Positions 25,584 to 40,181 of a DNA stretch of 43,559 nt are shown here, one piece after another (position 1 is the first letter of the stretch; every line of letters begins with the position of its first letter). The stretch covers positions 1 to 43,559 of the forward strand of contig JAFYHU010000016.1 in the NCBI GenBank assembly GCA_017538965.1, given 5' to 3'. Source of the DNA: Oscillospiraceae bacterium. GTDB lineage: Bacteria > Bacillota > Clostridia > Oscillospirales > Oscillospiraceae. Below the pieces are notes generated by a model. That model had not been told where the DNA came from. It searched no databases and worked only from the letters and a program-made list of their open reading frames with translations. The translations under genes and the position numbers were made by a program.

Positions 25584-26285
25584 CTACCCTGCGCTCTCAT
25601 AGAATCTCTCGCCTGTCTCCAGACGGACGCAGGCCAGTCTGCCGCCCTGCCCGGTCCCGTAGGCACAGCCGCAGTCAATCCACATGATTTTTCCGTCCTG
25701 CAGGATTTCCATCGGGATGATGCCGGAAAGATACTCCGTCGGCGTGTGCCCGCAGACCATCAGATCCTGCGGAAACTCCACCCCGCTGCCGGGTGCGATT
25801 CTGTTCCAGACGGCAAATTCCGTTTTGTTCTTCAGCCCCGCCGCGCCCTCGCTGAAAAGAAACGTCGGCGAGGCGTGCACCAGCAGAATTCTTTTCCCGT
25901 TGACGTTGATTTCCATGTTCTCCGGCAGTTCGCGGAGATAGTTCAGGATTCGGTCTTTTGTTCTCTGCGATTCTCTGAGAAACGCATAGTAGGTCACCCA
26001 GCCCCCGTTGAGGTTGCACCAGCGATCCATTTTCCGGATCCATCCGTCAAAATCCGTATCCGGGTCCGCATCCAGAAAATCCAGCATCATATACTCATGG
26101 TTTCCGAGAAGCATATGAATATTGGGCGCTTCCATGATCTCTTTCAGGATGGTAATGCCGCTCGGATTCCGGTCTATGACATCCCCGAGGATATAGAGCG
26201 TGTCGCTCCTGCGGAATCCGATCCTCTTCAGCATTCTGTGATACGGCCGGATTCTGCCGTGAATATCCGAAAGAACATAGGTCAT
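25584..26285 (-). CDS. Metallophosphoesterase (PrpE/PP1-like serine/threonine phosphatase or ApaH-like)
   Basis: 233 residues with the binuclear-metal motifs of the PPP-type family: SDIHGR near the start (D-x-H-G), LGDVIDRNP (G-D-x-x-D-R), LLGNHEYM (G-N-H-E), later LLVHASP and VCGHTPT. It could dephosphorylate proteins or cleave dinucleoside polyphosphates; the sequence does not decide. ATG at 26285 is preferred over the in-frame GTG at 26309 because AAAGGG lies 8 bases upstream. It follows lplA by 30 bases and may be the last gene of the catabolic operon. Confidence 0.85.
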   Translation of the reverse strand: MTYVLSDIHGRIRPYHRMLKRIGFRRSDTLYILGDVIDRNPSGITILKEIMEAPNIHMLLGNHEYMMLDFLDADPDTDFDGWIRKMDRWCNLNGGWVTYYAFLRESQRTKDRILNYLRELPENMEINVNGKRILLVHASPTFLFSEGAAGLKNKTEFAVWNRIAPGSGVEFPQDLMVCGHTPTEYLSGIIPMEILQDGKIMWIDCGCAYGTGQGGRLACVRLETGERFYESAG

Positions 26286-26308
26286 CTGATCATCCCTTTC
26301 CCCGTGCA

Positions 26309-26340
26309 CTGCCGACTACTTGCTGCCAACTAACAACTCT
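26309..26340. repeat. Degenerate 7-bp repeat at the lplA stop codon
   Basis: Minus strand AGTTGTTAGTTGGCAGCAAGTAGTCGGCAG: two to three AGTTNNN units encode the last residues of lplA and its TAG stop. Confidence 0.6.
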
Positions 26341-27308
26341 AAAATTTCCTCTTCCCGGATACCGCCGAACAGAGCAGGAATCTCAAAACGGGAGAAGACC
26401 TTTCGGAGAGCCTCCCGCTCCGGTCTGACGCCGCGCAGCGCCTCTGTGAGCTCTGTCTGCGGAGCGGTGGCCATAAAATCCCCGTAGAAGACGATGTCCT
26501 CGATGCGTCCGGCATGAACCTTCATCCGAATCTCCAGCGTTCCCCCCGGAAACCGCTCCCTCTTGCGGCAGTCATAATCCGGGCTGCGGCCGTAGGTCCA
26601 TTCCCAGCTCCGGTATTTGCTTTCCGCAAGCTCCCGGATTTCCGCGTATTCCGCATCGCTCAGCGTTTCCTGCTCCGGTCCTTCCGGCGTCAGCTCTTTC
26701 AGGAGTCTCTCCCAAAATTGCTGCAGACCGATGCCCTCCGGGAGATAGTCCGACAGGTTGCCGACGCGCGCCCGTACGGATTTGGCGCTCTTGGAGCGGA
26801 ACTTGGACGGATCTGCCTGCAGCGCCCCGGCAATCATCGCAGGGTCGGAGTGAAAGAGCAGCGTTCCGTGGTGCAGAATCCGTCCTTTGACGATGCGCTG
26901 TGCCACGCCGGAAACCTTCTTTCCGTCCACGAGGATGTCGTTTCGCCCGCTGGTCTGAGCGCAGACGCCCATCGCGGCGAGTGCCCGGCAGACCGGTTCG
27001 GTAAAGCGCCGGATCGACAGATCCTCGGCATTGCCGACGTCGCAGATGAAGGAGTAGTTCAGGTTCCCGAGGTCGTGATATACCGCGCCGCCCCCGGTCA
27101 TGCGCCGCACAACCGTGATGCCGTGCTCCTCGACAAAGGCGGCGTTGATCTCCTCCGCCGTATTCTGGTTCAGCCCGATGACGACAGTGTTGGCGTTCTG
27201 CCAGAGCAGCAGCCATTCGCCCTCACGCCTGTTTTCCAGAATGTACTGTTCCAGCGCCAGATTATAGCAGGGGTCCGTCGACCCGGTTTCCAGATATCGC
27301 ACGGCCAT
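26316..27308 (-). CDS. lplA: Lipoate-protein ligase A
   Basis: 330 residues with the LplA signature RRMTGGGAVYHDLGNLNYSF, the Lys/Arg-containing GRNDILVDGKKVSGVAQR and HHGTLLFHSD. LplA activates free lipoate with ATP and attaches it to the Lys of lipoyl domains. It sits downstream of the E2 and E3 genes, both of which carry lipoyl domains, so it most likely charges them. The C-terminal accessory domain is present (from about 250). ATG at 27308 is preferred: AAGGAGGT lies 7 bases upstream, whereas the GTG at 27317 overlaps it. Its last residues (LLVGSK) come from the 7-bp repeat. Confidence 0.94.
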   Translation of the reverse strand: MAVRYLETGSTDPCYNLALEQYILENRREGEWLLLWQNANTVVIGLNQNTAEEINAAFVEEHGITVVRRMTGGGAVYHDLGNLNYSFICDVGNAEDLSIRRFTEPVCRALAAMGVCAQTSGRNDILVDGKKVSGVAQRIVKGRILHHGTLLFHSDPAMIAGALQADPSKFRSKSAKSVRARVGNLSDYLPEGIGLQQFWERLLKELTPEGPEQETLSDAEYAEIRELAESKYRSWEWTYGRSPDYDCRKRERFPGGTLEIRMKVHAGRIEDIVFYGDFMATAPQTELTEALRGVRPEREALRKVFSRFEIPALFGGIREEEILELLVGSK

Positions 27309-27342
27309 CTCCCGCACCTCCTTCCGATTGCCGGCTGTTCAC

Positions 27343-28377
27343 TCACGGATACAGAAACATCTTGCCCGGTGCGCCGCTGCGCATCTTCGCGAATCCCGCT
27401 TCAAAATCCTCCAGGGCAAACTTTCCGCCGATGACCCGGTTCATATCATAGATCGGATCCTTCATGACGGTGGTGAAATCATCCCAGGTCTCCCAGATCC
27501 GTCTTCCGCAGATTCCCGAGAGGCGGATCTGGCGGTAGAAAAGATCCTCTGTCATGTCCATCGTGACGGGTTCGCCGGGCAGTCCGACCGAAACCAGCCG
27601 TCCGCCCGCCATGACGCTCTTCAGCGAGGCGTTCAGAGAGACCGGTGACCCGGTCACATCGATGGCCGCCTCGACGCCGAGACCGTCCGTCAGATCCAGG
27701 ACGCTGCGTACCAGATCCTGATTTCTGCTGTTGATGACGATGTCCGCACCCATCTGCTTCGCGGCCTCCAGCTTTTCATCAAAGAGGTCGCAGGCGATGA
27801 TCCGCTTTGCGCCGAAGACGCGGCAGGCCGCTACCACGGTCAGACCGATCGCGCCGCACCCGGCCACGAGGACATCCTTCCCCGCAACTCCAGCTTCCTC
27901 GACGCCGTGTACGCCGGAGCCCATCGGCTCGAAAATGCATCCCTGCTCATCACTCAGCGCGTCGTCCAGGACATAAGTCGCATCCGCGCGCACCTTGGAA
28001 TACTCCGCGAAGGCACCGTCCGTCTGAATGCCGTAAAGCGTCATATGCTGGCAGATATGCCGGTTCCCTGCGCGGCAGTGAGGGCAGCTGCCGTCCCAGA
28101 TGTGCGTCTCCACGGATACCCGCTGTCCGACGAAGCGATCCTTCACGTTCTTTCCGACCTCGATGATTTCACCCGTCGTCTCGTGGCCGATGATCCGCGG
28201 AAATGTCGTGATGCGTTTTCGTGCCCATGCGCCCCAGTCGTAGATGCCGAGGTCCGTTCCGCAGATGGAAGCACAGCGGATCTTCATCAGCACCTCGTCA
28301 TCCCCGATGACCGGCACGGGAAGATCGGTACGGTACTCCAGCCCCTTTCCCGCTTCGGTCTTTACAATTCCTCTCAT
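27343..28377 (-). CDS. Zinc-dependent medium-chain dehydrogenase, L-threonine 3-dehydrogenase-like
   Basis: 344 residues. Catalytic zinc ligands are seen in ASICGTD and IIGHETTGE, the NAD fold in VLVAGCGAIGLTVV, and a GRRIWETWDDF segment that resembles GREMFETW of E. coli threonine dehydrogenase, as do IYDWGAW near the start and MRSGAPGKMFL at the end. The structural zinc site keeps three Cys (SCPHCRAGNRHIC), but the first usual Cys is Asp. L-threonine to 2-amino-3-ketobutyrate is the best guess; butanediol or polyol dehydrogenase remain possible since no kbl gene is next to it. It follows the dehydrogenase complex after a strong hairpin. Confidence 0.8.
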   Translation of the reverse strand: MRGIVKTEAGKGLEYRTDLPVPVIGDDEVLMKIRCASICGTDLGIYDWGAWARKRITTFPRIIGHETTGEIIEVGKNVKDRFVGQRVSVETHIWDGSCPHCRAGNRHICQHMTLYGIQTDGAFAEYSKVRADATYVLDDALSDEQGCIFEPMGSGVHGVEEAGVAGKDVLVAGCGAIGLTVVAACRVFGAKRIIACDLFDEKLEAAKQMGADIVINSRNQDLVRSVLDLTDGLGVEAAIDVTGSPVSLNASLKSVMAGGRLVSVGLPGEPVTMDMTEDLFYRQIRLSGICGRRIWETWDDFTTVMKDPIYDMNRVIGGKFALEDFEAGFAKMRSGAPGKMFLYP

Positions 28378-28450: not shown

Positions 28451-30160
28451 TTACTTCCGATTCGGGATGTGGATGGCCTTCTTGTCGACGGCCAGGGCGC
28501 ATTCGCGCACCGCCTCCGCCACCGTCGGGTGGCAGTGAACGGTCTGCGTGAACTCTTCCAGCGTCGCTTCCAGCTTGATGGCCAGAGCCGCTTCTTCGAT
28601 CAGCTCCGTCGCGCTGGGTGCCAGGATGTGCACGCCGAGAATCTCTCCGTACTTCTCCCCCGCCAGAATCTTGATCATGCCGTCGGTATGTCCGGCTACC
28701 AGACTGCGGCCGTTGCCGCTGGTCGGGAACTTTCCGACCTTGTAGGCGATGCCGAGTTTCTTTGCCTTCTCCTCCGTGTAGCCGACGCCCGCGAATTCCG
28801 GTCCCACATAAGCGCAGATCGGGCATTCCTCCGTGCGGAAGCAGCGGTCGCCGCCCATGACGTTCTCCGCCGCGACTTCACCCATGGCCATGGCGCCGTG
28901 GGCAAGCATCACGCTGCAGGTGCAGTCGCCGATCGCGTACACGCCCGGCACGCTGGTCTCCATCTTCTCGTTCGTCTGAATGAAGCCCTTCTCGACCTTG
29001 ACGCCGGTGGTCTCCAGGCCGATTCCCGCGGTCTGCGGGGCGCGGCCGGTCGCAACCAGAACCTTCTCCGCCTCGAACACCTTTTCGCCGTCCGGGCACT
29101 TGACCGTGATCTTCGCACCCTTTTCGGTATCCTCGACCTTCTGAACGGCAGAGTCGGTATAAATCTCCATGCCCTGTCCGCTCAGTTTTGCCTGCAGCAG
29201 CGTGGTGAGTTCCCCGTCCATGCCGGGCAGCAGCTTCGGCATCATTTCGACGACCGTGACCTTGGTGCCGTAGCGCAGATACACGCTTCCGAGCTCCAGG
29301 CCGATGACGCCGCCGCCGATGATCAGAAGGCTCTCCGGGATGTGGTCCATCTCCAGGCAGGCGGTCGAGTCGATGCAGGCCTTGCTCTCTTTCACGCCGG
29401 GGATGCCCGGGATGAACGGGAAAGAGCCGGCCGCGATGATGACCTTGTCCGCGCTGTAGCTGTCTGCTCCGACCTTTACCGTCTTCGGCCCGGTAAACAC
29501 GGCCTCACCCATGACGAGCTTGACCTTGTTCGCCTTGCACAGCGCCTTGACGCCGGAGGTCAGTTTTTCCACGACGGACGCGCGGAAGCCCTGCACCTTC
29601 TCCCAGTCAACCAGCACTTCGGGGCACGAAATACCAATGTCGGCGCTGTTCTTTGCCTCGTCATAGATCTCCGAGGTGTGCAGCATCGCCTTTGTCGGCA
29701 TGCAGCCGCGGTTCAGGCAGGTACCGCCGACCTTGTCCTTTTCGATCAGGGTGACTTTGGCGCCGAGCTGCGCCGCGCGGATGGCGGCGACATAGCCGCC
29801 CGGGCCGCCGCCGACCACCAGAACGCTGTTGGCTTCCGCCGCCGGGGCCGCTGTCGCAGCCGGAGTTGCCGCCGGAGCTGCCGGGGCCGCAACGGATGAG
29901 GTGTCCGCCGGCACCGCTTCTCCCGCCGCGCCGAGCCAGCCGATCACCGTCTTGCAGGGGACCGTCTCCCCCGCCTGAACGAGAATCGCCAGCAGCACAC
30001 CGTCCGCTTCCGCTTCCACGTCATTTGTGAGCTTGTCGGTCTCCACGGAGAAAAGAATCTCTCCCTTTGCCACCGTATCGCCGACATTCTTCTTCCATCC
30101 GTCGATCGTACCCTCGGTCATGGTCAGACCGAGTTTCGGCATTAAGATCTCAGTTGCCAC
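28451..30160 (-). CDS. lpdA: Dihydrolipoyl dehydrogenase (E3) with N-terminal lipoyl domain
   Basis: 569 residues. Residues 1-80 are a lipoyl domain (Lys43 in ETDKLTND), then an Ala/Pro linker (85-112), then a flavoprotein: FAD fold VLVVGGGPGGYVAA, redox disulphide GGTCLNRGCMPTKA, NAD fold LLIIGGGVIGLELGSVY and the C-terminal His-Glu pair in HCHPTVAEAVREC. It reoxidises dihydrolipoyl groups of E2 with NAD. The GTG start (30160) has AAGGAGG about 10 bases upstream. Its lipoyl domain is almost identical to that of E2. It lies 15 bases after E2. Confidence 0.95.
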   Translation of the reverse strand: MATEILMPKLGLTMTEGTIDGWKKNVGDTVAKGEILFSVETDKLTNDVEAEADGVLLAILVQAGETVPCKTVIGWLGAAGEAVPADTSSVAAPAAPAATPAATAAPAAEANSVLVVGGGPGGYVAAIRAAQLGAKVTLIEKDKVGGTCLNRGCMPTKAMLHTSEIYDEAKNSADIGISCPEVLVDWEKVQGFRASVVEKLTSGVKALCKANKVKLVMGEAVFTGPKTVKVGADSYSADKVIIAAGSFPFIPGIPGVKESKACIDSTACLEMDHIPESLLIIGGGVIGLELGSVYLRYGTKVTVVEMMPKLLPGMDGELTTLLQAKLSGQGMEIYTDSAVQKVEDTEKGAKITVKCPDGEKVFEAEKVLVATGRAPQTAGIGLETTGVKVEKGFIQTNEKMETSVPGVYAIGDCTCSVMLAHGAMAMGEVAAENVMGGDRCFRTEECPICAYVGPEFAGVGYTEEKAKKLGIAYKVGKFPTSGNGRSLVAGHTDGMIKILAGEKYGEILGVHILAPSATELIEEAALAIKLEATLEEFTQTVHCHPTVAEAVRECALAVDKKAIHIPNRK

Positions 30161-30175: not shown

Positions 30176-31528
30176 TTACGCCAGGATCAGGGCCGGATTC
30201 TCCATCAGGCTCTTGACTCTCTGCAGGAATTCCGCCGCCACGGAGCCGTCTACCACGCGGTGATCCGCCGTGAGACTCAGATTCATGATCGGGCGGATGC
30301 ACATCTCGCCGTTGCGGACCACGACCTTGTCCTCCATGGTGTTGACACCGAGGATCGCCACCTCGGGCTGGTTGATGATCGGGGTGAAGCTCTCAATGCC
30401 GTACATGCCGAGGTTGGTGATCGTAAAGGTGCCGCCCTTCAGCTTTTCCGGCGGGAGCTTTCCCTCGCGGGCCTGTTTTGCCATCTCCTTGACCTCCGCG
30501 GAGATCTGGGTCAGGCTCTTCTTGTCCGCATCCTGAATGTTGGGTACCAGCAGTCCGCTGTCCAGCGCGACCGCCACGCCCATATTCACATAGTGCTTGT
30601 AGATGATCTTGTTGTCCTCGACCGAGCAGTTAAGCAGCGGGAACTCCGTGAGCGCCTTTGCGACAAACTTCACCAGCAGGTCGGTATAGCTGACCTTGAT
30701 TTCCTTCGCCTTGAGCTGCTCGCGATAGCGCTTCATCTCGGTCATGTCGATGCCGAGGTTGAAGGTGACGGTCGGGGAGGTCTGGACCGAGGCCAGCATG
30801 TTCTTGGCGATGGCCTTGCGCATGCCGTTCATGGGCTTGACTTCCTCGCGCTCGCCTGCCGCGTCGTCCGTCTTCTTCTCGCGTGTCTCGGCGATATACC
30901 GCAGCAGGTCCTCCGCCAGGACGCGCCCGTGCGCCGCCTTGACGTCCGCAAGATCGATGCCCAGATCCGCGGCGACCTTCTCCGCCAGCGGGCTGGCCTT
31001 GACCGCTGCAGGCGCCGCTGCCGCGGCTGCCGCAGCCGGGACAAAGCTCTCGACATCTTTCGCGACGACAACGCCCTTATAGCCCGTTGCCGGAATCTGT
31101 GCGAGGTCGAAGCCCTTTTCCTTCGCCAGCTTCTTCGCATACGGCGTCGCGAGTACGTACTCTCCCGCCGCGCGTGCCGGTGCGGCCGCAGGCGCCGCTG
31201 CCGCGGCTGCCGCTCCCTTGCCTTCCCCTTCGGGGGAAGCCGGCGCGGCCTCAGCCGGGGCGGAGGAGCTGCCTGCCGGCACCGCTTCGCCCGCAGCGCC
31301 GAGCCAGCCGATCACCGTCTTGCAGGCGACCGTTTCGCCGGCCGGTACCGTGATCGCCAGCAGCACGCCGTCCGCTTCCGCTTCCACGTCGTTGGTCAGC
31401 TTGTCGGTCTCCACGGAGAACAGAATCTCTCCCTTCGCAACCGCGTCGCCGACCTTCTTTTTCCATTCGTCGATGGTGCCTTCGGTCATGGTAAGGCCAA
31501 GCTTCGGCATTAAAATTTCAGTTGCCAT
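30176..31528 (-). CDS. Dihydrolipoyl acyltransferase (E2) of a 2-oxoacid/acetoin dehydrogenase complex
   Basis: 450 residues: lipoyl domain (1-80, Lys43), Ala/Pro linker, two peripheral-subunit binding domains (about 125-160, TPYAKKLAKEKG; about 185-222, SPLAEKVAADLG), and the catalytic domain ending TADHRVVDGSVAAEF with the active His. E2 moves the acyl group from lipoate to CoA. Two binding domains in one chain may let E1 and E3 dock separately. Part of the linker (about 94-106, ASPEGEGKG) is encoded by half of the family B palindromic element. Substrate (pyruvate, acetoin or a branched oxoacid) is not fixed by sequence. ATG has AAGGAG upstream. Confidence 0.93.
   Translation of the reverse strand: MATEILMPKLGLTMTEGTIDEWKKKVGDAVAKGEILFSVETDKLTNDVEAEADGVLLAITVPAGETVACKTVIGWLGAAGEAVPAGSSSAPAEAAPASPEGEGKGAAAAAAAPAAAPARAAGEYVLATPYAKKLAKEKGFDLAQIPATGYKGVVVAKDVESFVPAAAAAAAAPAAVKASPLAEKVAADLGIDLADVKAAHGRVLAEDLLRYIAETREKKTDDAAGEREEVKPMNGMRKAIAKNMLASVQTSPTVTFNLGIDMTEMKRYREQLKAKEIKVSYTDLLVKFVAKALTEFPLLNCSVEDNKIIYKHYVNMGVAVALDSGLLVPNIQDADKKSLTQISAEVKEMAKQAREGKLPPEKLKGGTFTITNLGMYGIESFTPIINQPEVAILGVNTMEDKVVVRNGEMCIRPIMNLSLTADHRVVDGSVAAEFLQRVKSLMENPALILA
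31213..31248. repeat. Left half of palindromic element (family B) inside the E2 gene
   Basis: CCCTTGCCTTCCCCTTCGGGGGAAGCCGG resembles the left half of the element in polA (24383) and encodes the same residues, SPEGEGKG, in the E2 linker. Confidence 0.75.
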
Positions 31529-31553: not shown

Positions 31554-32528
31554 TTAAAGGACGCCCTTGATGCCTTTGACCAGATCCTCGGGATAGACTC
31601 TATACAGTTTCTCCAGTGTGGGTGCGAAGGGGATCGGCGTAAACGGTGCGCCGTAGCGCAGGATCGGGGCATCCAGATACTCCAGGCCCTCTTCCGCGAC
31701 GGTCGCCGCAACCTCTGCCAGGGCGCCGCCCTGCTTGACGCACTCAGACACCAGGCACAGGCGATGGGTCTTCTTGACGGAGTTCAGCACGCATTCCTTG
31801 TCCCACGGGGACAGCGTAATCAGGTCGACAACCTCTGCGGAAATGCCGTCCTTTGCCAGGAGATCCGCGGCCGCGCGGGCGTTCTTCATGCCGATGGAGT
31901 AGGACACGATGGTGACGTCCTTGCCCTCGCGCTCGACGCGGGCCTTTCCGATCGTATACGGAACCTCGTCCTCTTTTTCGGGAACCTCGCCCGACTCCTT
32001 GTACAGCACCTTGTTCTCAAAGTACAGCACCGGGTCGTCGCACTCGATAGCCGCTTTCAGGACCATCTTTGCATCATAGGGGTTGGAGGGCGCCACGACC
32101 TTGATGCCGGGGATGTGGATGAACCAGCTCTCCACGCTCTGGGAGTGCTGCGCCGCGCCGCCGCCGGCCAGGCCGTCCGGGGCACGCAGAACCAGAGGAA
32201 TCTTCGCCTGGCCGCCGAACATGTAGCGCGCCTTGGCCATCTGGTTGAATACTTCGTCCATGCAGACGCCGATGAAGTCGGCAAAGTGCATGTCGACGAC
32301 CGGGCGTGCGCCGCCCAGCGCCGCGCCGACGCCGCCGCCGACGATGAAGGTCTCGGAGATCGGGGTGTCGATCACTCTGCCCGGGAACTCGTCCGGCAGA
32401 CCCTTGAACTGTCCGAAGATACCGCCCTGACGCGCGATATCCTCACCCATGACGAATACTTCCGGATACTTTTCCATCTCCTCCGCCATGGCTTCGCGGG
32501 TCGCATCAGAGAATGTTATTTTACGCAT
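31554..32528 (-). CDS. Thiamine-diphosphate-dependent dehydrogenase E1 component, beta subunit
   Basis: 324 residues of the transketolase-like beta fold: VFVMGEDIARQGG, GRVIDTPISETFIVGGGVGAA, DGLAGGGAAQHSQSVESWF and IPGIKVVAPSNPYDAK. With the alpha subunit it decarboxylates a 2-oxoacid or cleaves acetoin and loads the product on E2. Conserved Glu and His (GED, QHSQS) are in place. ATG at 32528 has GGAGGT 8 bases upstream, and the gene lies 15 bases after E1 alpha. Confidence 0.94.
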   Translation of the reverse strand: MRKITFSDATREAMAEEMEKYPEVFVMGEDIARQGGIFGQFKGLPDEFPGRVIDTPISETFIVGGGVGAALGGARPVVDMHFADFIGVCMDEVFNQMAKARYMFGGQAKIPLVLRAPDGLAGGGAAQHSQSVESWFIHIPGIKVVAPSNPYDAKMVLKAAIECDDPVLYFENKVLYKESGEVPEKEDEVPYTIGKARVEREGKDVTIVSYSIGMKNARAAADLLAKDGISAEVVDLITLSPWDKECVLNSVKKTHRLCLVSECVKQGGALAEVAATVAEEGLEYLDAPILRYGAPFTPIPFAPTLEKLYRVYPEDLVKGIKGVL

Positions 32529-32543: not shown

Positions 32544-33515
32544 TTAATCCACGTAGACATCTTTGAAGTACTCGGACTCATCCGGATACTCGCAGCTTAC
32601 GGCAAATTCCTTCGCCGCCGCGACCTTGGCGCGGGCCGCCGCAAGGATCTCGTCGAGTTCCGCCTGTGTAAATTCCACACCGGCCGGCAACTTGTCCAGG
32701 AAGTGGGTCAGCGGATCGGTGTCGTGGAAGATCTGCATGGTCTCTTCCTTTTTGCGGTACTTCTCCGGGTCACCGACAAAGTGCCCTTCAATACGGTAGG
32801 TCTTGGCTTCGATGAAGGTCGGTCCTTCACCGCGGCGGGCTCTTTCCACCGCTTCACAGGCCGCGGCATAGACTTCAAACACGTTCTGACCGTCTACGAT
32901 CACTCTCGGCATTCCGTAACCCAGCGCGCGGTCGGAGATGTTCTCGACGGCGGTGGTGGTGCGGTACGGGGTCGTGGAAGCCCAGCAGTTCATCTCGTTG
33001 ACGAAGATTACCGGAAGCTTCCATGCGGCCGCCACGTTCGCAGCCTCGTGGAAGGTGCCGCGGTTGGAGGCGCCGTCGCCGAAGAAGACGACGGAAACAT
33101 TGTCGTTTTTCAGGATCATCTTGCTGGCCAGCGCCGCGCCGGTAGCCAGGTTGTAGCCGCCGCCGACGACGCCGTTGGCGCCCAGCATGCCGACCGAGAA
33201 GTCCGCAATGTGCATGCTGCCGCCCTTGCCCTTGCAAAGGCCGTCCTTCCTGCCGAAGATCTCCGCCATCATTTTATTCACATCCGCGCCTTTTGCGATG
33301 CAGTGGCCGTGGCCGCGGTGAGTACTCTCGATAAAGTCCGTGTCGCGGAGCGCGGCACAGATGCCGGTTCCGATGGCTTCCTCGCCGATATACAGGTGAA
33401 CGAAGCCGGGGATTTCGCCGTTCAGGAAGTCCTTCTTGACCGACTCCTCGAAGCAGCGAATGGTGCACATGGTTTCATAGAACTTTTTTGCTTGCTCTTT
33501 TGTTACCTCAGGCAA
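32544..33515 (-). CDS. Thiamine-diphosphate-dependent dehydrogenase E1 component, alpha subunit
   Basis: 323 residues. Clear alpha-subunit motifs: HLYIGEEAIGTGICAALRD, STHRGHGHCIAKG, GKGGSMHIADFSVGMLGANG and the thiamine-diphosphate motif GDGASNRGTFHEAAN. The RGHGH and GGSMHIAD stretches are as close to acetoin dehydrogenase AcoA as to pyruvate dehydrogenase, so the substrate is open. TTG at 33515 has AAAGG 10 bases upstream; the in-frame GTG at 33524 would have only 1 base of spacing, so I chose TTG with moderate certainty. A GGGGACGGTTC palindrome lies between this gene and the PPC-domain gene upstream. Confidence 0.93.
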   Translation of the reverse strand: MPEVTKEQAKKFYETMCTIRCFEESVKKDFLNGEIPGFVHLYIGEEAIGTGICAALRDTDFIESTHRGHGHCIAKGADVNKMMAEIFGRKDGLCKGKGGSMHIADFSVGMLGANGVVGGGYNLATGAALASKMILKNDNVSVVFFGDGASNRGTFHEAANVAAAWKLPVIFVNEMNCWASTTPYRTTTAVENISDRALGYGMPRVIVDGQNVFEVYAAACEAVERARRGEGPTFIEAKTYRIEGHFVGDPEKYRKKEETMQIFHDTDPLTHFLDKLPAGVEFTQAELDEILAAARAKVAAAKEFAVSCEYPDESEYFKDVYVD

Positions 33516-33540
33516 TGTTCTCACACCTTTCTCAATTTTT

Positions 33541-33565: not shown

Positions 33566-33608
33566 ATTTTTTCTCTCTCAAATTCCCGTCGCAGCGGATA
33601 TTTCAACT

Positions 33609-34085
33609 TTATTTTTGTACCGGATTCAAAAGCCACACGTCCATCTCTTCGTCGTACTCCCGCAGCATGCTTACCCCTTCGATTTCTCCCAGGACAATAT
33701 CCGCGGTCATCAGAACTTCCGTCCCTTCCACAAGATGCCCTCCGTAGGCTTTTCCGTTTTTATCGCTCATGCTGATATGAATGTGCAGGTTGATATTCTG
33801 GTCGGCATCGCTGCAGATCACGCCTCCGGCACCGGTCAGCTCGATGGTCTCGTCCAGGGCGAGAATCTTCCCGTATCCGTATCCGCATTTCTTGTCCGGC
33901 AGCGCTTCCACATCGCAGAAGCGCACCTTTTTCAGGCTGCCGATCGCGCTGATCACCACGCCGTTGTGAATCTGATAGCGTTCGCAGGCCGCCTGGATTC
34001 CGCCCAGCAGATCTGTCCCGGGCTTCAGGCGTATAACAACGACACGGCCCATCCGGCCCTGTGCCGCATTGAACTCTTCGCTCAT
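33609..34085 (-). CDS. PPC/DUF296 domain protein
   Basis: 158 residues of the plants-and-prokaryotes-conserved (PPC/DUF296) fold: VVVIRLKPGTDLLGGIQAACERY, GVVISAIGSLKKVRFCDV, ELTGAGGVI and INLHIHISMSDKNGKAYGGHL. The LHIHIS histidines and GGH segment may bind a metal in the trimer. In archaea and bacteria the role is unclear; plant members bind AT-rich DNA. ATG at 34085 is preferred (AGGAG 8 bases upstream) over the in-frame start at 34163. It heads the dehydrogenase operon directly behind operator site 1, so it may help regulate or process the substrate. Confidence 0.85.
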   Translation of the reverse strand: MSEEFNAAQGRMGRVVVIRLKPGTDLLGGIQAACERYQIHNGVVISAIGSLKKVRFCDVEALPDKKCGYGYGKILALDETIELTGAGGVICSDADQNINLHIHISMSDKNGKAYGGHLVEGTEVLMTADIVLGEIEGVSMLREYDEEMDVWLLNPVQK

Positions 34086-34100
34086 GGCAGAATCTCCTGA

Positions 34101-34124
34101 CTTTTGGTATATTGGTCCTACCAA
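34101..34124. promoter_or_regulatory. Operator site 1 of the FCD regulator, before the dehydrogenase operon
   Basis: CTTTTGG, nine bases, then GTCCTACCAA. The core TTGGT-CCT-ACCAA (34112-34124) is a perfect palindrome of the FadR-family form TNGTnnnACNA. It matches site 2 at 23 of 24 bases and lies 16 bases before the PPC-domain ATG. No clear -35/-10 pair is seen here. Confidence 0.75.
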
Positions 34125-34133
34125 CCGCTTTGG

Positions 34134-34168
34134 GAAATATGCCCTGCAGAAGCTGCAGGGCATATTTC
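34134..34168 (-). terminator. Terminator of the TRAP operon after dctP
   Basis: A perfect 16-bp stem (GAAATATGCCCTGCAG) with a 3-base loop, 14 bases after the dctP stop. The T tract is short, but the stem is very stable and separates dctP from the operator of the next operon. Confidence 0.7.
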
Positions 34169-34182
34169 AGGTTTGAACGAAA

Positions 34183-35226
34183 TTACTTTGTGAAGACGTC
34201 GATCAGGCTGGACATCTCGTCCTCGGTGAAGCCGTAGTCTTTCACGCAGGTCTCGGCCCACTCGGCCGGGACGTTGGCAGCGCCTTCCTGGAACTCCTTA
34301 ACCTCATCCTCGGTGAGGTAGGTGAAGGTCACGCCGGCCTTGGTCCACTTGTCGATGACGACCTGGTCGCCTTCGCGCTCGAGCTGGCGCTGCTGGGCAG
34401 CGGCCCAGGCACCGGCCTCGTCGACGAGAGCCTGGAGCTCGGGAGACAGGGAGTCATACAGATCCTGGTTCATGCAGAAGAAGATGCAGTCATACACACC
34501 GGTCCAGTAGGTGCAGTAGCTCTGGACGTCGCTGATGGAGCCGCCGTCTGCGGTGGGCAGGGGGTTCTCCTGGCCGTCATAGGTGCCCTGCTGCAGGGCG
34601 GTGTAAACTTCGCTCCAGTTCGCGATCTGCCAGTTGGAGCCCCAGTCGCCGTAGGCATAGGTCAGAACAGCGGTGTTCGGGATACGGATCTTCAGACCGA
34701 CCATATCAGCCGGGCTCTTGATCTCGTGCTTGCTGTTGGTGACATGACGGAAGCCGTTCTCGGCAATGCCCAGCAGGTGCAGGCCCAGACCCTCGACAAT
34801 GGGGGCAAGGGCTTCATAGCCGGCGCCGCCCGGGCTGAGCAGGGCGTCGACGTCATCGGTGGACTCGAAAATGAACGGCAGGGACACGACGTTCAGTCTC
34901 TGATCGAAACCGGACATGATCAGGTTGGAGTGTGCGCACATATCGGTGGATCCGTCGATAACGGCCTGGATGCCTTCCTGCTGGTTACCGGCAGTGAGCT
35001 GGTCCTGTGCATAAACCGTAACGGTGATCTTGCCGTCCGTGCGGTCGCTCAGATACTTGCCGAACTGACGGCCCATATCGGCCCAGCAGGTGTTGTCGGT
35101 GGCGGAGCAGGCGAAGGACCACTCCATCGGCTTTTTCACTTCGACGACGGTATCATCGGCGAAGGCGGTTGCGCCGAGTGCAAATACCAGCGTCAGCGCA
35201 AGAACGATTGCTAAGAACTTCTTCAT
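34183..35226 (-). CDS. dctP: TRAP transporter solute-binding protein (DctP family)
   Basis: 347 residues with a Sec signal peptide (MKKFLAIVLALTLVFALG, cleavage near AFA-DD). The mature part is a DctP/TAXI-like binding protein of the TRAP_dctP family: DLTAGNQ-type region (QLTAGNQQEGIQAVIDG), LPFIFEST, and the carboxylate-binding Arg region GLKIRIPNTAV. It should capture an organic acid outside the membrane for DctQM. ATG at 35226 has AGGAGG 6 bases upstream; an in-frame earlier ATG at 35268 is rejected. It is the third gene of dctQ-dctM-dctP and is separated from dctM by a palindromic repeat. Confidence 0.93.
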   Translation of the reverse strand: MKKFLAIVLALTLVFALGATAFADDTVVEVKKPMEWSFACSATDNTCWADMGRQFGKYLSDRTDGKITVTVYAQDQLTAGNQQEGIQAVIDGSTDMCAHSNLIMSGFDQRLNVVSLPFIFESTDDVDALLSPGGAGYEALAPIVEGLGLHLLGIAENGFRHVTNSKHEIKSPADMVGLKIRIPNTAVLTYAYGDWGSNWQIANWSEVYTALQQGTYDGQENPLPTADGGSISDVQSYCTYWTGVYDCIFFCMNQDLYDSLSPELQALVDEAGAWAAAQQRQLEREGDQVVIDKWTKAGVTFTYLTEDEVKEFQEGAANVPAEWAETCVKDYGFTEDEMSSLIDVFTK

Positions 35227-35309
35227 TGTTTTCCTCCTGTTTTTTTGTTTTTTATCTGTATCACACATTGTGTGACATCAGCCTTTTCAGACTCCCTCTT
35301 CCTCTATTT

Positions 35310-35353
35310 GGCTCCCTCTCTGAGGGAGCTGTCAGCGTAGCTGACTGAGGGAG
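35310..35353. repeat. Palindromic element (family B variant) between dctM and dctP
   Basis: GGCTCCCTCTCTGAGGGAGC, then TGTCAGCGTAGCTGACTGAGGGAG. Two hairpins in series, ending at the dctM stop codon. A closely related copy is at 39343-39402. Confidence 0.8.
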
Positions 35354-36658
35354 TTAGCCGCCCAGAATCATCAGGCTGAACCAGGGCACATACGTGATCA
35401 GCAGCAGCGCGACCACACAGGCGATAATCATCGGCCATACAGCCTTCGAGATACTCGCGATCGTAACGCGTGTCTTGTCTCTCAGTTCTCCCAGGCTGTC
35501 CGAAATGCCGATCGCGACAAACAGGTTCACGCCGACGGGCGGGGTCACCTGTCCGATGGCGAGGTTCACGGTGGCAATGACGCCGAAGTGAACCAGATCG
35601 ATGCCGAGCTCCTCGGCAACGGGCGCCATGATCGGGATAAAGATATACATGGCGGAGTTTGCGTCCACGAAGCATCCGGCAATCAGGAAGATGATGTTGA
35701 TGATGATGAGGAATACATACTTGTTTCCGGATACCTGCAGCAGCAGCGCCTGCGCCGCTTTCGAAATGCCGAACTTCATGCAGACGTAGGAGAAGACCGC
35801 CGCGGTACCGATGATCAGCATGATGGAGCCGGTCGTCTTGCCCGAGTCTACCATAATCTTGATGAAGTTTTTGATCTTGATTTCGCGGTAAATGAAGATG
35901 CCGACGATCAGCGCATAGACCACCGATACGGCTGCCGCCTCGGTCGGGGTGAAGACGCCGCCGTAGATGCCGCCCAGAATGATGACCGGAACCAGGAAGC
36001 CCCAGAGTGCCTGAAGGAAGGTCTTGCCGCGGTGCGCCCAGGTGGAGCGCTCACGGCTGGCGGTGATGCCTCTTTTCTTTACTTCGATCAGCACGATCGC
36101 GATCAGGGCCAGACCCATCATGATGCCGGGGATGATGCCTGCCATGAACATGTTGCCGACGGAGACGCCCGTAATGGACGCGTAGACGACGAAGGCGATC
36201 GACGGCGGTATGACGATGGCGATGGATGAGGCTGCCGCCATCAGCGCCGAGGCAAACGGCGCCGAAAAGCCTCCGCTGTTGATCATGGCCGGAATCAGAA
36301 TGATGCCCAGCGCTGCGACCGTCGCCGGCCCGGAGCCGGAGATGGCGCCGAAGAACATAGCCACGATGACGCAGACGATGGCAATGCCGCCCTTCTGATG
36401 ACCGACGCAGTCGTCAATGAAGGCGATCAGACGGCGGGAAATGCCCGCCTCCGCCATCACGTTGCCGGATATGACAAAGAAGGGAATGGCCAGCAGCAGG
36501 AACTTTGCCATGCCGTTGTAGAGGTTCGTGGGGATGACCGTAAACTTGGTCCCGCCGTACATCATGGCAAAGACGGAACTCAGACCCAGGCTTGCCGCGA
36601 TCGGGACATTCAGAAGAAGCAGAATGAAGAAGCTGCCGAAAAGAATAAAGTTAATCAT
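35354..36658 (-). CDS. dctM: TRAP transporter large permease (DctM family)
   Basis: 434 residues with about 12 membrane segments. Family features include an N-terminal LNVPIAASLGLSS, AIPFFVISGNVMAEAGISRRL, GAISGSGPATVAALG, GFSAPFASALMAAASSIA, PPSIAFVVY and GQVTPPVGVNLFV near the end. It forms the sodium-driven channel with DctQ and DctP. It overlaps dctQ by 4 bases (ATGA). Its stop is at the edge of a palindromic element. Confidence 0.95.
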   Translation of the reverse strand: MINFILFGSFFILLLLNVPIAASLGLSSVFAMMYGGTKFTVIPTNLYNGMAKFLLLAIPFFVISGNVMAEAGISRRLIAFIDDCVGHQKGGIAIVCVIVAMFFGAISGSGPATVAALGIILIPAMINSGGFSAPFASALMAAASSIAIVIPPSIAFVVYASITGVSVGNMFMAGIIPGIMMGLALIAIVLIEVKKRGITASRERSTWAHRGKTFLQALWGFLVPVIILGGIYGGVFTPTEAAAVSVVYALIVGIFIYREIKIKNFIKIMVDSGKTTGSIMLIIGTAAVFSYVCMKFGISKAAQALLLQVSGNKYVFLIIINIIFLIAGCFVDANSAMYIFIPIMAPVAEELGIDLVHFGVIATVNLAIGQVTPPVGVNLFVAIGISDSLGELRDKTRVTIASISKAVWPMIIACVVALLLITYVPWFSLMILGG

Positions 36659-37185
36659 GTTTCAGCCGCCTCCTCTTTCTTGGGTTCGGGAGTCTGCATG
36701 CAGGGTGCCTTCTCCGTCAGCACGTCGATCATATATTCGATCGAATGCAGGATCAGGAGAATGCCGCCCAGCGGCAGCGCTGCCATAAACCAGCCCTCCG
36801 GAATCAGCAGCGAAGCCGTCAGCTTGTGCTGATGCAGCAGGGTCGCCGTCTTATCCCAGCCGGTATAGACGATCACCGCATAGAAAGCGATGCTGAGGAC
36901 CGTGAAGATTACTGCCATAATCTTTTTGCCCTTTTTCCCGACGAGGTCGAACACCAGCGACAGGCTGATCAGACTGCCGCTGCGGGCGCAGAGTGCGCAG
37001 CCGCACATGATCATCAGCACGAAAATGTTGACCGTGAGTTCCTCGGTATAGGCCAGCTTACCGTTTGAAAGGTAGCGCACACAGACATTGGCAAAGGCGA
37101 TAACCGTAATCACGACTCCGATGAGCACCTGGATCGTGGATTCCAGATACCCGAGGATATCCATGATCTTTTTGTAAACCTTCAT
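36655..37185 (-). CDS. dctQ: TRAP transporter small permease (DctQ family)
   Basis: 176 residues with four membrane helices typical of DctQ: MDILGYLESTIQVLIGVVIT, RYLSNGKLAYTEELTVNIFVL, CALCARSGSLISLSLVFD and VYTGWDK. It precedes and overlaps dctM. ATG at 37185 has GAAGGG 9 bases upstream. Promoter and operator site 2 are upstream. Confidence 0.93.
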   Translation of the reverse strand: MKVYKKIMDILGYLESTIQVLIGVVITVIAFANVCVRYLSNGKLAYTEELTVNIFVLMIMCGCALCARSGSLISLSLVFDLVGKKGKKIMAVIFTVLSIAFYAVIVYTGWDKTATLLHQHKLTASLLIPEGWFMAALPLGGILLILHSIEYMIDVLTEKAPCMQTPEPKKEEAAET

Positions 37186-37238
37186 TCCATCATTCCCTTC
37201 CGCGGGTTGTCGCTGCTGCCGGACGGCGGCTGTGACAG

Positions 37239-37262
37239 CTTTTGGTATTTTGGTCCTACCAA
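37239..37262. promoter_or_regulatory. Operator site 2 of the FCD regulator, before the TRAP operon
   Basis: The same 24-base motif as site 1, with one mismatch; core TTGGT-CCT-ACCAA at 37250-37262. It lies 12 bases downstream of the -10 box, so a bound repressor would cover the transcription start region. Confidence 0.8.
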
Positions 37263-37274
37263 TTCGGTGTCTCT

Positions 37275-37303
37275 ATTCTACATCTTTCCAACCGCTTCTT
37301 CAA
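37275..37303 (-). promoter_or_regulatory. Promoter of the TRAP operon
   Basis: TTGAAG (37298-37303) and TAGAAT (37275-37280) are 17 bases apart on the minus strand, about 90 bases before dctQ. Confidence 0.65.
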
Positions 37304-37422
37304 GCATTATCCGTTCGGCAAAACAGCGAAAAAACCCACCTCTATTTGTATAAATATCACAAAAACTTTGTTATTAATTTATCATTCTGCTCCCCATCTC
37401 GCTCCCTCCCTGTTCGCGCTTC

Positions 37423-37473
37423 CGTAGGGAGCGATCCCCAGATCGCTCCGCAATCCCCGCGCCCGCAGGCGCC
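37423..37473. repeat. Dispersed element family A
   Basis: CGTAGGGAGCGATCCC...GATCGCTCCGCAATCC, then CGCGCCCGCAGGCGCCC. Near-identical copy at 38431-38482, partial copies at 25512-25543 and 43207-43243. It contains GGAGCGATC...GATCGCTCC and GCGCCCGCAGGCGC palindromes. It occupies the 37263-37609 gap, where no gene is seen. Confidence 0.85.
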
Positions 37474-37483
37474 CTTCCCCCGT

Positions 37484-37560
<77 letters not shown>

Positions 37561-37574
37561 AAATCTCCTCTCTC

Positions 37575-37603
37575 TTTACTTTCTCCCTTTCCCGCCTTAT
37601 AAT
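37575..37603 (+). promoter_or_regulatory. Promoter giving a possibly leaderless mRNA
   Basis: TTTACT (37575-37580) and a perfect TATAAT (37598-37603) are 17 bases apart. The ATG at 37610 begins 7 bases after the -10, where transcription should start. Confidence 0.6.
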
Positions 37604-37609
37604 GCCCCT

Positions 37610-38326
37610 ATGAAAACCATGTTCTCTAAAAACTCAAACCCGCTCCCGCCGGAGCTGGAACGCGCGGCCAGCGAGCGCTTCGGGAAACATGTCTCGCCGC
37701 AGAAGGCTCTCGTAACGCTGATCTTTTCCCTCCTGACGGCGGCATCTCCCATGCTGCTCGGCCTTCGCCTGTGGGATCGGATCCCCTCCCTTGTGGAAAC
37801 GGGCCTGATCGGCCCGGGCGGAACGGACGATTCCATGCCCCGCGCCGTTCTGGTCTTCGGAGTTCCCGGCCTCTTTTGCGTGCTCAACGCCATCTGCCAC
37901 GGCCAACTCTGGCTGCACCAGAAAGCAAGCCGGGTTCCCCCCTCTTCGGTCCGCCTCCTCGGGCGGTGGAGCATCCCGGTCATCTCCGTGCTGCTCAGTT
38001 CCTTCTGGATTGCCCTCGCAGCCGGGGAGCATCCCGATCTTTCGTTCTATCTCCCCTGCGCGCTGGCGCTGTTGCTGATCCTGCTGGGCGCGCATTTCTT
38101 CGACTGCAGCCGCGAATCCAAACTCGCCTTTCATCTGAGCAGGATTGAACATTGGGAAGGCCCCTGGCGCAAAACCCACCGCCTCGCCGGCGTCTGCTGG
38201 ATGCTCGCCGGGCTGCAGATTCTGATGTTCTGGTTCCTCTTCGGCAGTCTTCCTTGGTATTCCATGGTGTTCGTCCTGCTGCTGACGCTCTCCGAGTTTC
38301 CCGCCGCCATGTACTTTTCGAAATAA
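37610..38326 (+). CDS. Polytopic membrane protein of unknown function (faintly DUF1648-like)
   Basis: 238 residues. A charged N-terminus with LPPELERAASERFGKHVSP is followed by about five or six hydrophobic segments (about 38-55, 80-100, 122-142, 148-165, 190-210, 214-232). RIPSLVETGLIGPGG followed by MPRAVLVFGVPGLFCVLNA recalls the layout of DUF1648 proteins, but the match is weak and I do not claim it. It stands alone on the plus strand with its own promoter and terminator. There is no ribosome site before ATG 37610, consistent with a leaderless message; ATG 37619 is the alternative. The promoter region abuts repeat DNA. Confidence 0.7.
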   Translation: MKTMFSKNSNPLPPELERAASERFGKHVSPQKALVTLIFSLLTAASPMLLGLRLWDRIPSLVETGLIGPGGTDDSMPRAVLVFGVPGLFCVLNAICHGQLWLHQKASRVPPSSVRLLGRWSIPVISVLLSSFWIALAAGEHPDLSFYLPCALALLLILLGAHFFDCSRESKLAFHLSRIEHWEGPWRKTHRLAGVCWMLAGLQILMFWFLFGSLPWYSMVFVLLLTLSEFPAAMYFSK

Positions 38327-38331
38327 AGAAA

Positions 38332-38381
38332 AAGGCCTCCTCTGCCGGCGCCTTCCGCGCCCCAGAAGAGGTCTTATTCTA
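38332..38381 (+). terminator. Terminator of the membrane protein gene
   Basis: AAGGCCTCCTCTG (38332-38344) pairs with CAGAAGAGGTCTT (38363-38375) through two wobble positions, followed by a T-rich tail. Confidence 0.65.
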
Positions 38382-38430
38382 TCTTTTCTCTCCCCGCCTC
38401 CGAAGCGGATTTCTCAACTCTGCAGTACCC

Positions 38431-38482
38431 CGTAGGGAGCGATCCCCAGATCGCTCCGCAATCCCCACGCCCGCAGGCGCCC
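38431..38482. repeat. Dispersed element family A
   Basis: Second near-complete copy of the 37423-37473 element, joined directly to a family B element. The 316-base gap 38327-38642 holds only the terminator and these repeats. Confidence 0.85.
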
Positions 38483-38623
38483 TTGCCTTCCCCCTTGGGG
38501 CGCGACGCGTTAAGCAAACGTGCCGGTGGCACGTTTGTAGCCAAAGCGGGAAGCGATCTGTGATCGCGACCCGGAAGGTGGCATCGCCGCAGGCGATGAC
38601 GGATGAGGTCCCCGCCGCAGCGG
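38481..38623. repeat. Long palindromic element family B with nested hairpins
   Basis: CCTTGCCTTCCCCCTTGGGG at the left and GGATGAGGTCCCCGCCGCAGCGG at the right enclose further palindromes: AAACGTGCC...GGCACGTTT, GCGATCTGTGATCGC and GGCATCGCCGCAGGCGATG. Compared with 43243-43309 the middle is expanded by about 75 bases. Confidence 0.8.
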
Positions 38624-38642
38624 TTAACTACCAGCTATAATC

Positions 38643-39320
38643 CTATCTCTCATCATAATTCTCAATAATCTTCAAATGCCGCCCCATCTCATAGACGGCC
38701 AGCTCCTCGTCCCGCGCCTTGACTGCTTCATAAATCCGCCGGTGCGCCTCGGCCGTCATGCCGTGATATTCTTCTCTTTCGAAGAAGCGCATGCGCAGCT
38801 CCAGGATCAGGCTGTTGACGTAGTTGAGCATCACTCCGAAGATCGTATTGTGGCTGGCATAGGCAAGATTGACGTGGAAATCCACATCGGCCTCAAAATC
38901 CGTGGCGTCGGATTCCAGTCTTTCGACAGAGTCACGAAGCCGTTCCAGATCCTCTTCCGTCGCTCGCCTGCAGGCAAGCCGAGCAATCTCCCTCTCGTTC
39001 ACCCTCCGGAATTCCATGAAGTCCTCAAAGGTGTCCTGCGAATAGGAAAGCTCGATCAGCGAGCGCGCCTTCCGGAACCGGTCCGCGTTCTTCACCAGGA
39101 TTTTCCGGTTGCCGCGGTTCTCCACGATCCCCATGAAGCTCATGATTGCGAGACACTCCCGCAGGGAGTTTCTGGAGATGCCGAGCGCTTCCGCCAGATC
39201 GCGCTCCGGAGGCAGTTCCTCCCCGACCTGAATGGTACCCGCTTCCATCGCTTTCAGCAGGCTGTCCATTACCAGCTCCGGTACTTTCGGTCCGTTGTTC
39301 TGAATCTTCTCAAACTGCAT
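38643..39320 (-). CDS. GntR-family regulator, FCD (FadR) subfamily, likely controller of the local regulon
   Basis: 225 residues. Winged helix-turn-helix (about 15-75): MDSLLKAMEAGTIQVGEELP and ERDLAEALGISRNSLRECL. FCD domain (about 95-215) with DFEADVDFHVNLAYAS and a later His in MTAEAHRRIYEA, the usual metal-ligand pattern. It is 170 bases after the SGNH hydrolase gene on the same strand and probably in its operon, so it would be under operator site 3. The three sites in this window with FadR-type symmetry make it the best candidate regulator of the TRAP and dehydrogenase operons. ATG has GGAG about 9 bases upstream. Confidence 0.93.
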   Translation of the reverse strand: MQFEKIQNNGPKVPELVMDSLLKAMEAGTIQVGEELPPERDLAEALGISRNSLRECLAIMSFMGIVENRGNRKILVKNADRFRKARSLIELSYSQDTFEDFMEFRRVNEREIARLACRRATEEDLERLRDSVERLESDATDFEADVDFHVNLAYASHNTIFGVMLNYVNSLILELRMRFFEREEYHGMTAEAHRRIYEAVKARDEELAVYEMGRHLKIIENYDER

Positions 39321-39342
39321 ACCCGTTCTCTCCCCGTCTCTC

Positions 39343-39470
39343 CGGCTTCCCCTCTGGGGAAGCTGTCAGCGCAGCTGACTGATGAGGTCCCCGCCGCAGC
39401 GGCTCCCCGCGCCCTCCGCCGCCCTTGCCTCCCTCCTTGAGGGAGGTGGCCCGTAGGGCCGGAGGGAGTT
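39343..39470. repeat. Two palindromic elements (family B variants) in series
   Basis: 39343-39402: CGGCTTCCCC..GGGGAAGCTGTCAGCGCAGCTGACTGATGAGG then CCCCGCCGCAGCGG (described in parts; hairpin, hairpin, tail). 39423-39470: CCTTGCCTCCCTCC..GAGGGAGG, a small GGCCCGTAGGGCC-like palindrome, then GGAGGGAG. They fill the gap between the SGNH and gntR genes. Confidence 0.8.
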
Positions 39471-39490
39471 CCCCCGTCTTTGAACTTTAC

Positions 39491-40093
39491 TTACGGATTC
39501 ATCGTCTCCCGTTCCATCACGCCGATCACTTTTACGACGCGTTCGGCCATGACGCGGTGTCCCTCCGGATTCAGATGCAGGCCGTCCAGGTACAGCTCCG
39601 TGCGCACCCGGCCGTCCCGGTCGCGAAAGTCCCTGCGAAAATCGATCATCCGCACCCCGAAACTGCTGCAAAAGCGCTCCAGCCATGCATAGTAGCGCTC
39701 GATCTCCTCCGCCGCTTCCGGGAAATCCACCAAGTCCGTCCAGGCGCTCGGATAATGTCCCTGTGCAACGCCCGGTCCGATCGCGATCAGCGGCATCTCG
39801 CCCGCCGCGAAGAGCTGATGCGTCATTGCCGCCATGTTCTCTCTGGCGCCGGTGCTGCTTCCGGAGAAAAAGATGTCGTTGCATCCGCCCATCAGCAGGA
39901 AACAGCGTTCCCCGCCGCTCTTCTCCCTCAGGATCTCCCGCAGACGTACAAGCATGCCGCCTGTCGTATCCCCGCAGATGCCATGGTTGCGAAGCGTCCA
40001 TCCGCTCATTGCGGAAGCAAGCTCCGTCCAGCATTGCGCCCTGCGCACGCCGTATCCGTATGTCAGGCTGTCGCCGATGCAGATCATATCCAT
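39491..40093 (-). CDS. SGNH/GDSL-type hydrolase
   Basis: 200 residues with the four SGNH blocks: Ser in CIGDSLTYGYG, Gly in the GICGDTTGGML stretch, Asn in LMGGCNDIFF and Asp/His in DGLHLNPEGH. There is no signal peptide, so it acts in the cytoplasm. It probably removes an acyl or acetyl ester from a small molecule; the true substrate may be the compound brought in by the TRAP system. It has a perfect promoter overlapped by operator site 3 and precedes the FCD regulator gene. A short 7-bp repeat follows its TAA. Confidence 0.9.
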   Translation of the reverse strand: MDMICIGDSLTYGYGVRRAQCWTELASAMSGWTLRNHGICGDTTGGMLVRLREILREKSGGERCFLLMGGCNDIFFSGSSTGARENMAAMTHQLFAAGEMPLIAIGPGVAQGHYPSAWTDLVDFPEAAEEIERYYAWLERFCSSFGVRMIDFRRDFRDRDGRVRTELYLDGLHLNPEGHRVMAERVVKVIGVMERETMNP

Positions 40094-40138
40094 TTCTCTG
40101 CCCTCGCTTAATTCCCGTCTCTCGCGTCTTTCGATTTT

Positions 40139-40167
40139 ATTATAATGTACTCTTGGTCTTTTGGCAA
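40139..40167 (-). promoter_or_regulatory. Promoter of the SGNH hydrolase-gntR operon
   Basis: TTGCCA (40162-40167) and TATAAT (40139-40144) are 17 bases apart. The -35 box lies within operator site 3. Confidence 0.75.
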
Positions 40168-40181
40168 GACCGTCCTACCAA
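40158..40181. promoter_or_regulatory. Operator site 3 of the FCD regulator
   Basis: CTTTTGG at the left and GTCCTACCAA at the right at exactly the same spacing as sites 1 and 2; 18 of 24 bases match site 1. The differing bases are all in the middle. It covers the -35 box of the SGNH-gntR promoter, a typical repressor position. Confidence 0.65.

Follow-up and report, generated by a model that had tools for sequence, protein, structure and literature searches.

Introduction

The operators of FadR, PdhR and LldR follow the consensus TNGTNNNACNA or TTGGT-N3-ACCAA, a palindrome. Acetoin operons consist of acoABCL with a butanediol dehydrogenase gene. The operator of Escherichia coli NanR is made of direct repeats: the NanR report (PMC8012715) gives it as (GGTATA)3, common to three operons and downstream of the polymerase-binding site. 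The same report describes a NanR dimer in which one domain sits on the consensus while its partner occupies neighbouring non-consensus sequence, a cooperativity that needs the N-terminal extension, and R59, R69 and R73 as likely base contacts. Here we analyse a stretch of 43,559 nucleotides (the window; positions 1 to 43,559 of contig JAFYHU010000016.1, Oscillospiraceae bacterium assembly GCA_017538965.1). There are three related 24-base sites in it, within a gene cluster for a TRAP transporter, a thiamine-dependent complex and an FCD-type GntR regulator. Judged from the sequence, the three sites are very probably operators of this neighbouring regulator, which would act as a local repressor of one regulon and be released by a small carboxylate.

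The locus resembles that of NanR in the FCD-type GntR architecture of the regulator, in having three operons with a common operator and in half-sites at a near-equal period (in front of nanA, successive NanR half-sites are separated by 9 bp and by 8 bp, in that order). It differs from it in that the operator combines two inverted half-sites with a third as a direct repeat, in an N-terminal extension that is about 19 residues shorter than that of NanR in our alignment, and in that there are no sialic acid genes among the annotated genes of the cluster. The central TTGGT-N3-ACCAA palindrome is shared with the operators of FadR, PdhR and LldR, but unlike these the present operator has an invariant asymmetric centre (A-N-G) and a conserved one-sided third half-site.

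A regulon of this kind is already known; the present one is supported in that it passes the computational tests and recurs in related genera. What is new is the mixed operator form, an internal hairpin-operator junction and a proposed pathway in which a PPC protein takes part. Our search of the literature outside subscription journals and preprints found no paper combining the searched terms. A cluster of a large genus becomes a testable regulon with a defined switch, for which the chemistry is predicted, and a PPC/DUF296 protein gains a concrete enzyme hypothesis.

Three probable operator sites in one cluster

The sites, all read on the minus strand, are operator A (site 1, 34101..34124), operator B (site 2, 37239..37262) and operator C (site 3, 40158..40181). 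Site 1 is CTTTTGGTATATTGGTCCTACCAA. Site 2 (CTTTTGGTATTTTGGTCCTACCAA) has 23 of its 24 bases in common with site 1, and site 3 (CTTTTGGCAAGACCGTCCTACCAA) has 18 of 24, its differences being central. A first-pass annotation of this DNA had these coordinates and counts right, but its formula with a spacer of nine bases finds no match in the window even at 3 mismatches, and the true spacer is 7. The core TTGGT-N3-ACCAA is exact in sites 1 and 2 only; compared with TTGGTCCTACCAA, site 3 shows 3 mismatches. Operator A, read along the operon strand, is TTGGTAGGACCAATATACCAA plus AAG. By sequence, the predicted operator consists of a palindrome, TGGTA-N-GACCA, and of a third half-site (ACC) that follows 8 bp further, on one flank only. 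Site 3 is a second, conserved form of the putative operator, not the same core as in sites 1 and 2, and includes a -35 box.

Operator A lies before the PPC-E1 genes (the dehydrogenase operon), 15 bases from the start codon of the PPC gene in the window. Operator B directly follows the -10 box of the TRAP promoter (TTGAAG-17-TAGAAT, 37275..37303, minus strand). This promoter matches 9 of 12 consensus bases and is weak by itself; TAGAAT/TAAAAT-like boxes precede operator B in orthologous loci. Operator C overlaps the -35 of the promoter of the SGNH-FCD operon (TTGCCA-17-TATAAT, 40139..40167, minus strand, 11 of 12 consensus bases), and the same spacing can be read in the orthologous loci L047 and L048.

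The whole assembly comprises 3,393,808 bases in 91 contigs and is 93.9% complete. Within it, TTGGTNNNACCAA is found at sites 1 and 2 only, a degenerate 24-mer built from the three sites matches only those three at up to 3 mismatches, and the reversed control pattern has no match. The genome-wide scan that had been proposed as a check thus confines the motif to the cluster in its own genome, and because the copies are limited to three sites the motif is not a dispersed repeat. That it is nonetheless a repeat, or a promoter or RNA element, and no regulator site could be argued from the -35 hexamer inside site 3 and from other repeated intergenic elements seen by eye in the window. However, there are only three copies in 3.39 Mb, A, B and C differ in their position relative to promoters, the conserved columns fit FCD operators, and the region 33000-43559, including the hairpin described below, has no Rfam match. 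We consider this explanation largely refuted and its residual probability very small.

Conservation of the probable operators within the genus

Within the genus, a search of 102 genomes at E 1e-40 or better gives orthologues of the regulator in 12, its own included, with 48-95% identity. Across 398 sampled genomes from the phylum, a search at E 1e-45 found only its own genome. The named records of this genus in the searches are ruminant-gut metagenome-assembled genomes. Among the 12 loci the operator precedes DctQ (class B) in 11 and the PPC gene (class A) in 10; the contig of L037 stops short of the PPC gene, and L052 and L053 are near-identical, yet both are counted. In 11 of 12 loci the motif thus goes together with the orthologous FCD gene and with these operons.

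The 21 class A and B sites read TTGGTAGGACCAAnAnACCna on the operon strand. TGGTA, GACCA and C18 are invariant in all 21, and the flanks have diverged between loci. A 21-base weight matrix built from them and run over 247,005 bases of the 12 loci gave 25 matches of at least 12 bits, 21 of which were in its training set: 22 are of class A/B type (among them an additional one in L037, towards the SGNH gene), three are equivalents of site 3 (class C), and there is nothing else. The shuffled control, in which only TGGT-anchored windows were counted, gave 0.6 matches per replicate. At site 3, three species (those of the window, L047 and L048) share TTGGTAGGACGGTCTTGCCAA without a change, and each time it comes with TTGCCA-17-TATAAT. 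The right arm of site 3 thus doubles as the -35 box.

Several observations count against the proposed regulon. The L039 locus, whose FCD protein is 68% identical, has no operator at DctQ or at the PPC gene. Strong class C sites are confined to the window, L047 and L048; L037 has one full-type site further upstream, the sites of L036, L038 and L049 are degenerate (8.1, 0.0 and 0.5 bits), and in L039, L050, L051, L052 and L053 there is none worth naming. Since class C is so patchy across the 12 loci, autoregulation is well supported in part of the genus only. Additionally, the consensus scan of the minus strand before operator A found no promoter-like site, though one could have been missed.

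The absence of a site from the FCD operon promoter in 5 of 12 loci, with only degenerate sites in 3, would also fit another GntR/FCD protein, encoded elsewhere, binding the sites while the neighbouring FCD protein controls something else. There are candidates: 5 FCD proteins are encoded in the genome (E 1e-15 or better), among them one more in the window at 7441-8103. However, in the stretches of the relatives that the search covered, the sites adjoin this FCD orthologue at every site-bearing locus of the genus, as they do in the clusters from other genera, and in their own genome they occur nowhere outside the cluster. We therefore think it improbable that a distant regulator is responsible, and prefer the neighbouring one, whose gene itself lies within one of the three controlled operons. 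The link originally drawn between uptake, an esterase, a thiamine-dependent complex and an FCD repressor is supported by the restriction of the motif to the cluster, by the 11 of 12 loci, by the other genera and by this position of the FCD gene.

Related clusters in other genera

In Oscillibacter ruminantium GH1, Oscillibacter sp. RGIG9025 and Anaerotruncus massiliensis (genus by name, not by GTDB assignment), FCD genes 47-54% identical to the present one adjoin TRAP and E1 genes, and the clusters carry TTGGT-N3-ACCAA or one-mismatch sites. The Vescimonas fastidiosa cluster encodes an FCD protein (49%), DctPQM (24-40%), a HIBADH-like dehydrogenase, an MBL-fold hydrolase, a PPC protein (52%), E1 alpha, E1 beta, E2, E3 and lipoate ligase. 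Its TRAP operator, GGTATTTTGGTATCGTGGTTAGATGGTATGACCAAATTACC, has four GGT in 8-bp steps and then two ACC, also at an 8-bp step. At L057 2417-18502 and L059 11950-20680, two distinct E1 alpha/beta pairs lie in one FCD cluster of Oscillibacter, possibly for two acids.

The FCD regulator and its proposed mode of action

The regulator gene (38643..39320, minus strand) encodes a protein above the curated cut-offs for both FCD (PF07729, 76.8 bits against 24.3) and GntR (PF00392, 38.9 bits against 27). Its scores to the following NCBIfam models are below their cut-offs: the NanR model scores best (108.1 bits, cut-off 260), and PdhR (77 vs 330), LldR (92.3 vs 311), GlcC (87 vs 301) and FadR (46.4 vs 189) are lower. 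In the alignment with NanR, R40, R50 and R54 stand opposite R59, R69 and R73. D145, H149, H193 and H215 of the FCD domain, which we take to be the metal ligands of FCD proteins, do not vary, either among the orthologues (12 of 12) or in the alignment with NanR (4 of 4 rows). As these residues are kept, the effector is likely to be a carboxylate.

Steric repression fits operators B and C, because B directly follows the TRAP -10 and C covers the -35. Bound regulator would block the polymerase at both, with autoregulation at C. Operator A would work differently. Transcription of the PPC-E1 genes may come by read-through from the TRAP genes, and regulator bound to operator A would then block the passing polymerase until the small carboxylate releases the repressor. 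A hairpin between dctP and operator A (34134..34168, minus strand) recurs in all 10 of the loci that have class A sites; its consensus comprises 13 pairs, of which 4 show compensatory changes. The distance from hairpin to operator is 12-13 bases across loci and 9 in the window, where the stem is longer.

A third half-site at an 8-bp spacing

The extra one-sided ACC, 8 bp from the ACC of the palindrome, is conserved in sites A and B. As it is kept despite their differing promoter contexts, it probably belongs with the regulator. We searched 101 other FCD loci and found 35 TGGTNNNACCA sites within 600 bp of an FCD gene, in 24 loci; 16 of the 35 have an ACC/GGT repeat at exactly 8 bp, compared with 0-3 at other offsets from 3 to 15. 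When FCD proteins are clustered at 45% identity, the repeat is found in 8 of 15 clusters (one of which holds orthologues of the present regulator), and offsets of 6, 7, 9 and 10 in 0-3.

The controls do not extend this to a general rule. There is no genome-wide enrichment: TTGGTNNNACCANNNNACC has 44 matches in 31 of 119 genomes, against 73 in 45 of 119 at a spacing one base longer. A second set of 90 FCD loci held just 3 TGGT-N3-ACCA sites, 1 with the 8-bp repeat, and its cores with any complementary letter gave 2 of 9 at 8 bp and likewise 2 of 9 at 7 bp. Where the core letter was not G, sites of the first set had the repeat in 0 of 8. Sites distant from an FCD gene (43 loci) had it in 1 of 11, vs 2 of 11 at 7 bp. 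The 8-bp rule is therefore limited to FCD genes near TGGT-N3-ACCA sites. The data suggest that palindromic and direct-repeat FCD operators may both be cuts from one 8-bp lattice. An Oceanobacillus FCD locus (L064) offers an independent three-half-site example, with three ATGGT-N3-ACCA sites at 961, 3964 and 6746 and an ACC at +8 of each.

Gene content and predicted pathway

All of the following genes are on the minus strand. The regulator operon begins with an SGNH/GDSL hydrolase gene (39491..40093). The TRAP genes encode the small permease DctQ (36655..37185; named from position and synteny, with no NCBIfam match), the large permease DctM (35354..36658) and the solute-binding protein DctP (34183..35226), whose best solved relative by sequence is 4p8b. 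Then follow genes for the PPC/DUF296 protein (33609..34085; PF03479 over cut-off), E1 alpha (32544..33524), E1 beta (31554..32528), an E2 acyltransferase with a lipoyl domain (30176..31528), an E3 dihydrolipoyl dehydrogenase with an N-terminal lipoyl domain (28451..30160), a threonine-3-dehydrogenase (TDH)-like zinc dehydrogenase (27343..28377) and a lipoate-protein ligase (26316..27317). A calcineurin-like phosphoesterase (25584..26309) is possibly the last gene of the E1 operon, its membership being uncertain, and no match to it was reported in the stretches of the relatives. The TDH-like gene adjoins the FCD gene in four relatives (L036, L037, L038 and L049) and lies beyond E3 in three (L048, L052 and L053); none was seen in the stretches covered of the other 4.

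The thiamine-dependent complex looks like one of acetoin-dehydrogenase type. E1 alpha is 49.5-52.3% identical to E1 genes on plasmid records, and the surrounding regions that were opened, of the best match and three others near it, all read as acetoin operons (4 of 4). E2, a lipoyl-bearing E3 and lipoate ligase are further points of likeness. Unlike acetoin operons, the present cluster has TRAP uptake, an added PPC protein, an FCD regulator instead of the sigma-54 regulator of the acetoin operons inspected, and a TDH-like enzyme in place of butanediol dehydrogenase (34% identity over 260 residues).

We suggest that the TRAP transporter may import a 2,3-dihydroxy acid. Its beta-hydroxyl could be oxidised by the TDH-like enzyme, or in Vescimonas by the HIBADH-like one, the beta-keto acid decarboxylated by the PPC protein, and the resulting acyloin cleaved to acyl-CoA and an aldehyde by the acetoin-dehydrogenase-type complex. 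The PPC protein, labelled 'DNA-binding' in public records, has both the acetolactate decarboxylase fold and an HxH...GGH motif. A canonical acetolactate decarboxylase was sought in 60 genomes (its own, 36 of the genus and 23 of the order), and the sole match belongs to another family.

This pathway is tentative and, in our view, less likely than not. A common fold shows no function, so the decarboxylase role is putative. The PPC protein is 14% identical to acetolactate decarboxylase, similarity between the sequences is confined to one motif, and there is no PF03306 match at E up to 10 within the HMMER filters. The hhalign probability for the pair is 0.4% with one sequence and 4.8% with an alignment, and 7 of 28 other extracted PPC proteins lack the HxH...GGH motif. 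The TDH-like enzyme is under the L-threonine 3-dehydrogenase cut-offs (330.8 vs 380 and 334.7 vs 458.35 bits). In Vescimonas the acid may differ, because the TRAP proteins are only 24-40% identical to those here.

There is some chance, short of even, that the regulon is right and the pathway plain. A 2-hydroxy acid would become a 2-oxo acid and then acyl-CoA, with oxidative decarboxylation by E1-E2-E3 and the PPC protein as an accessory. E1 beta passes a pyruvate dehydrogenase subfamily cut-off (321.9 vs 321), and E1 alpha scores 327.5 bits to the pyruvate dehydrogenase E1 alpha model TIGR03182, although under its cut-off of 393.85. A gene that carries the annotation acetoin oxidoreductase E1 has only 38.3% identity to E1 alpha, which makes it no closer than some pdhA genes, and the dehydrogenase class varies among genera. 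The four acetoin operons around the closer E1 genes speak against the plain route, which also leaves a conserved decarboxylase-fold PPC protein without a role.

More speculative still, and doubtful in our view, is the joint reading of pathway and operator: an undescribed fermentative 2,3-dihydroxy acid route in gut Oscillospiraceae, in which PPC/DUF296 would be the functional counterpart of acetolactate decarboxylase and feed acyloin to the acetoin-dehydrogenase-type complex. Its FCD repressor would read an 8-bp half-site lattice linking the FadR palindrome and the NanR direct repeats, and FCD regulators of the TGGT-N3-ACCA branch would follow this lattice as a general rule.

Other features of the window

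There is a 238-aa gene on the other strand between the TRAP and FCD operons (37610-38326, plus strand), with no Pfam match at 1e-10. DNA homologous to this region was found near the same place in several orthologous loci, with a query in the wrong frame. In L036 (6669-7575) the dctP of genome G029 is in two pieces, from a frameshift or an assembly error. The repeated intergenic elements near the operons, found by eye, are at approximately 37417-37470 and 38430-38485 and at 35310-35355 and 39340-39385, and are of two types, a GGGAGCGATCCCCAGATCGCTCC type and a GCTGTCAGCG-AGCTGACTGA type. The second FCD-type GntR regulator (7441-8103, minus strand) adjoins a small multidrug-export-like protein. 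Finally, an SRAP-domain protein, a Y-family polymerase and a LexA-like HTH/S24 repressor are encoded in a row at 8177-11340 (minus strand), forming an SOS-type mutagenesis cassette.

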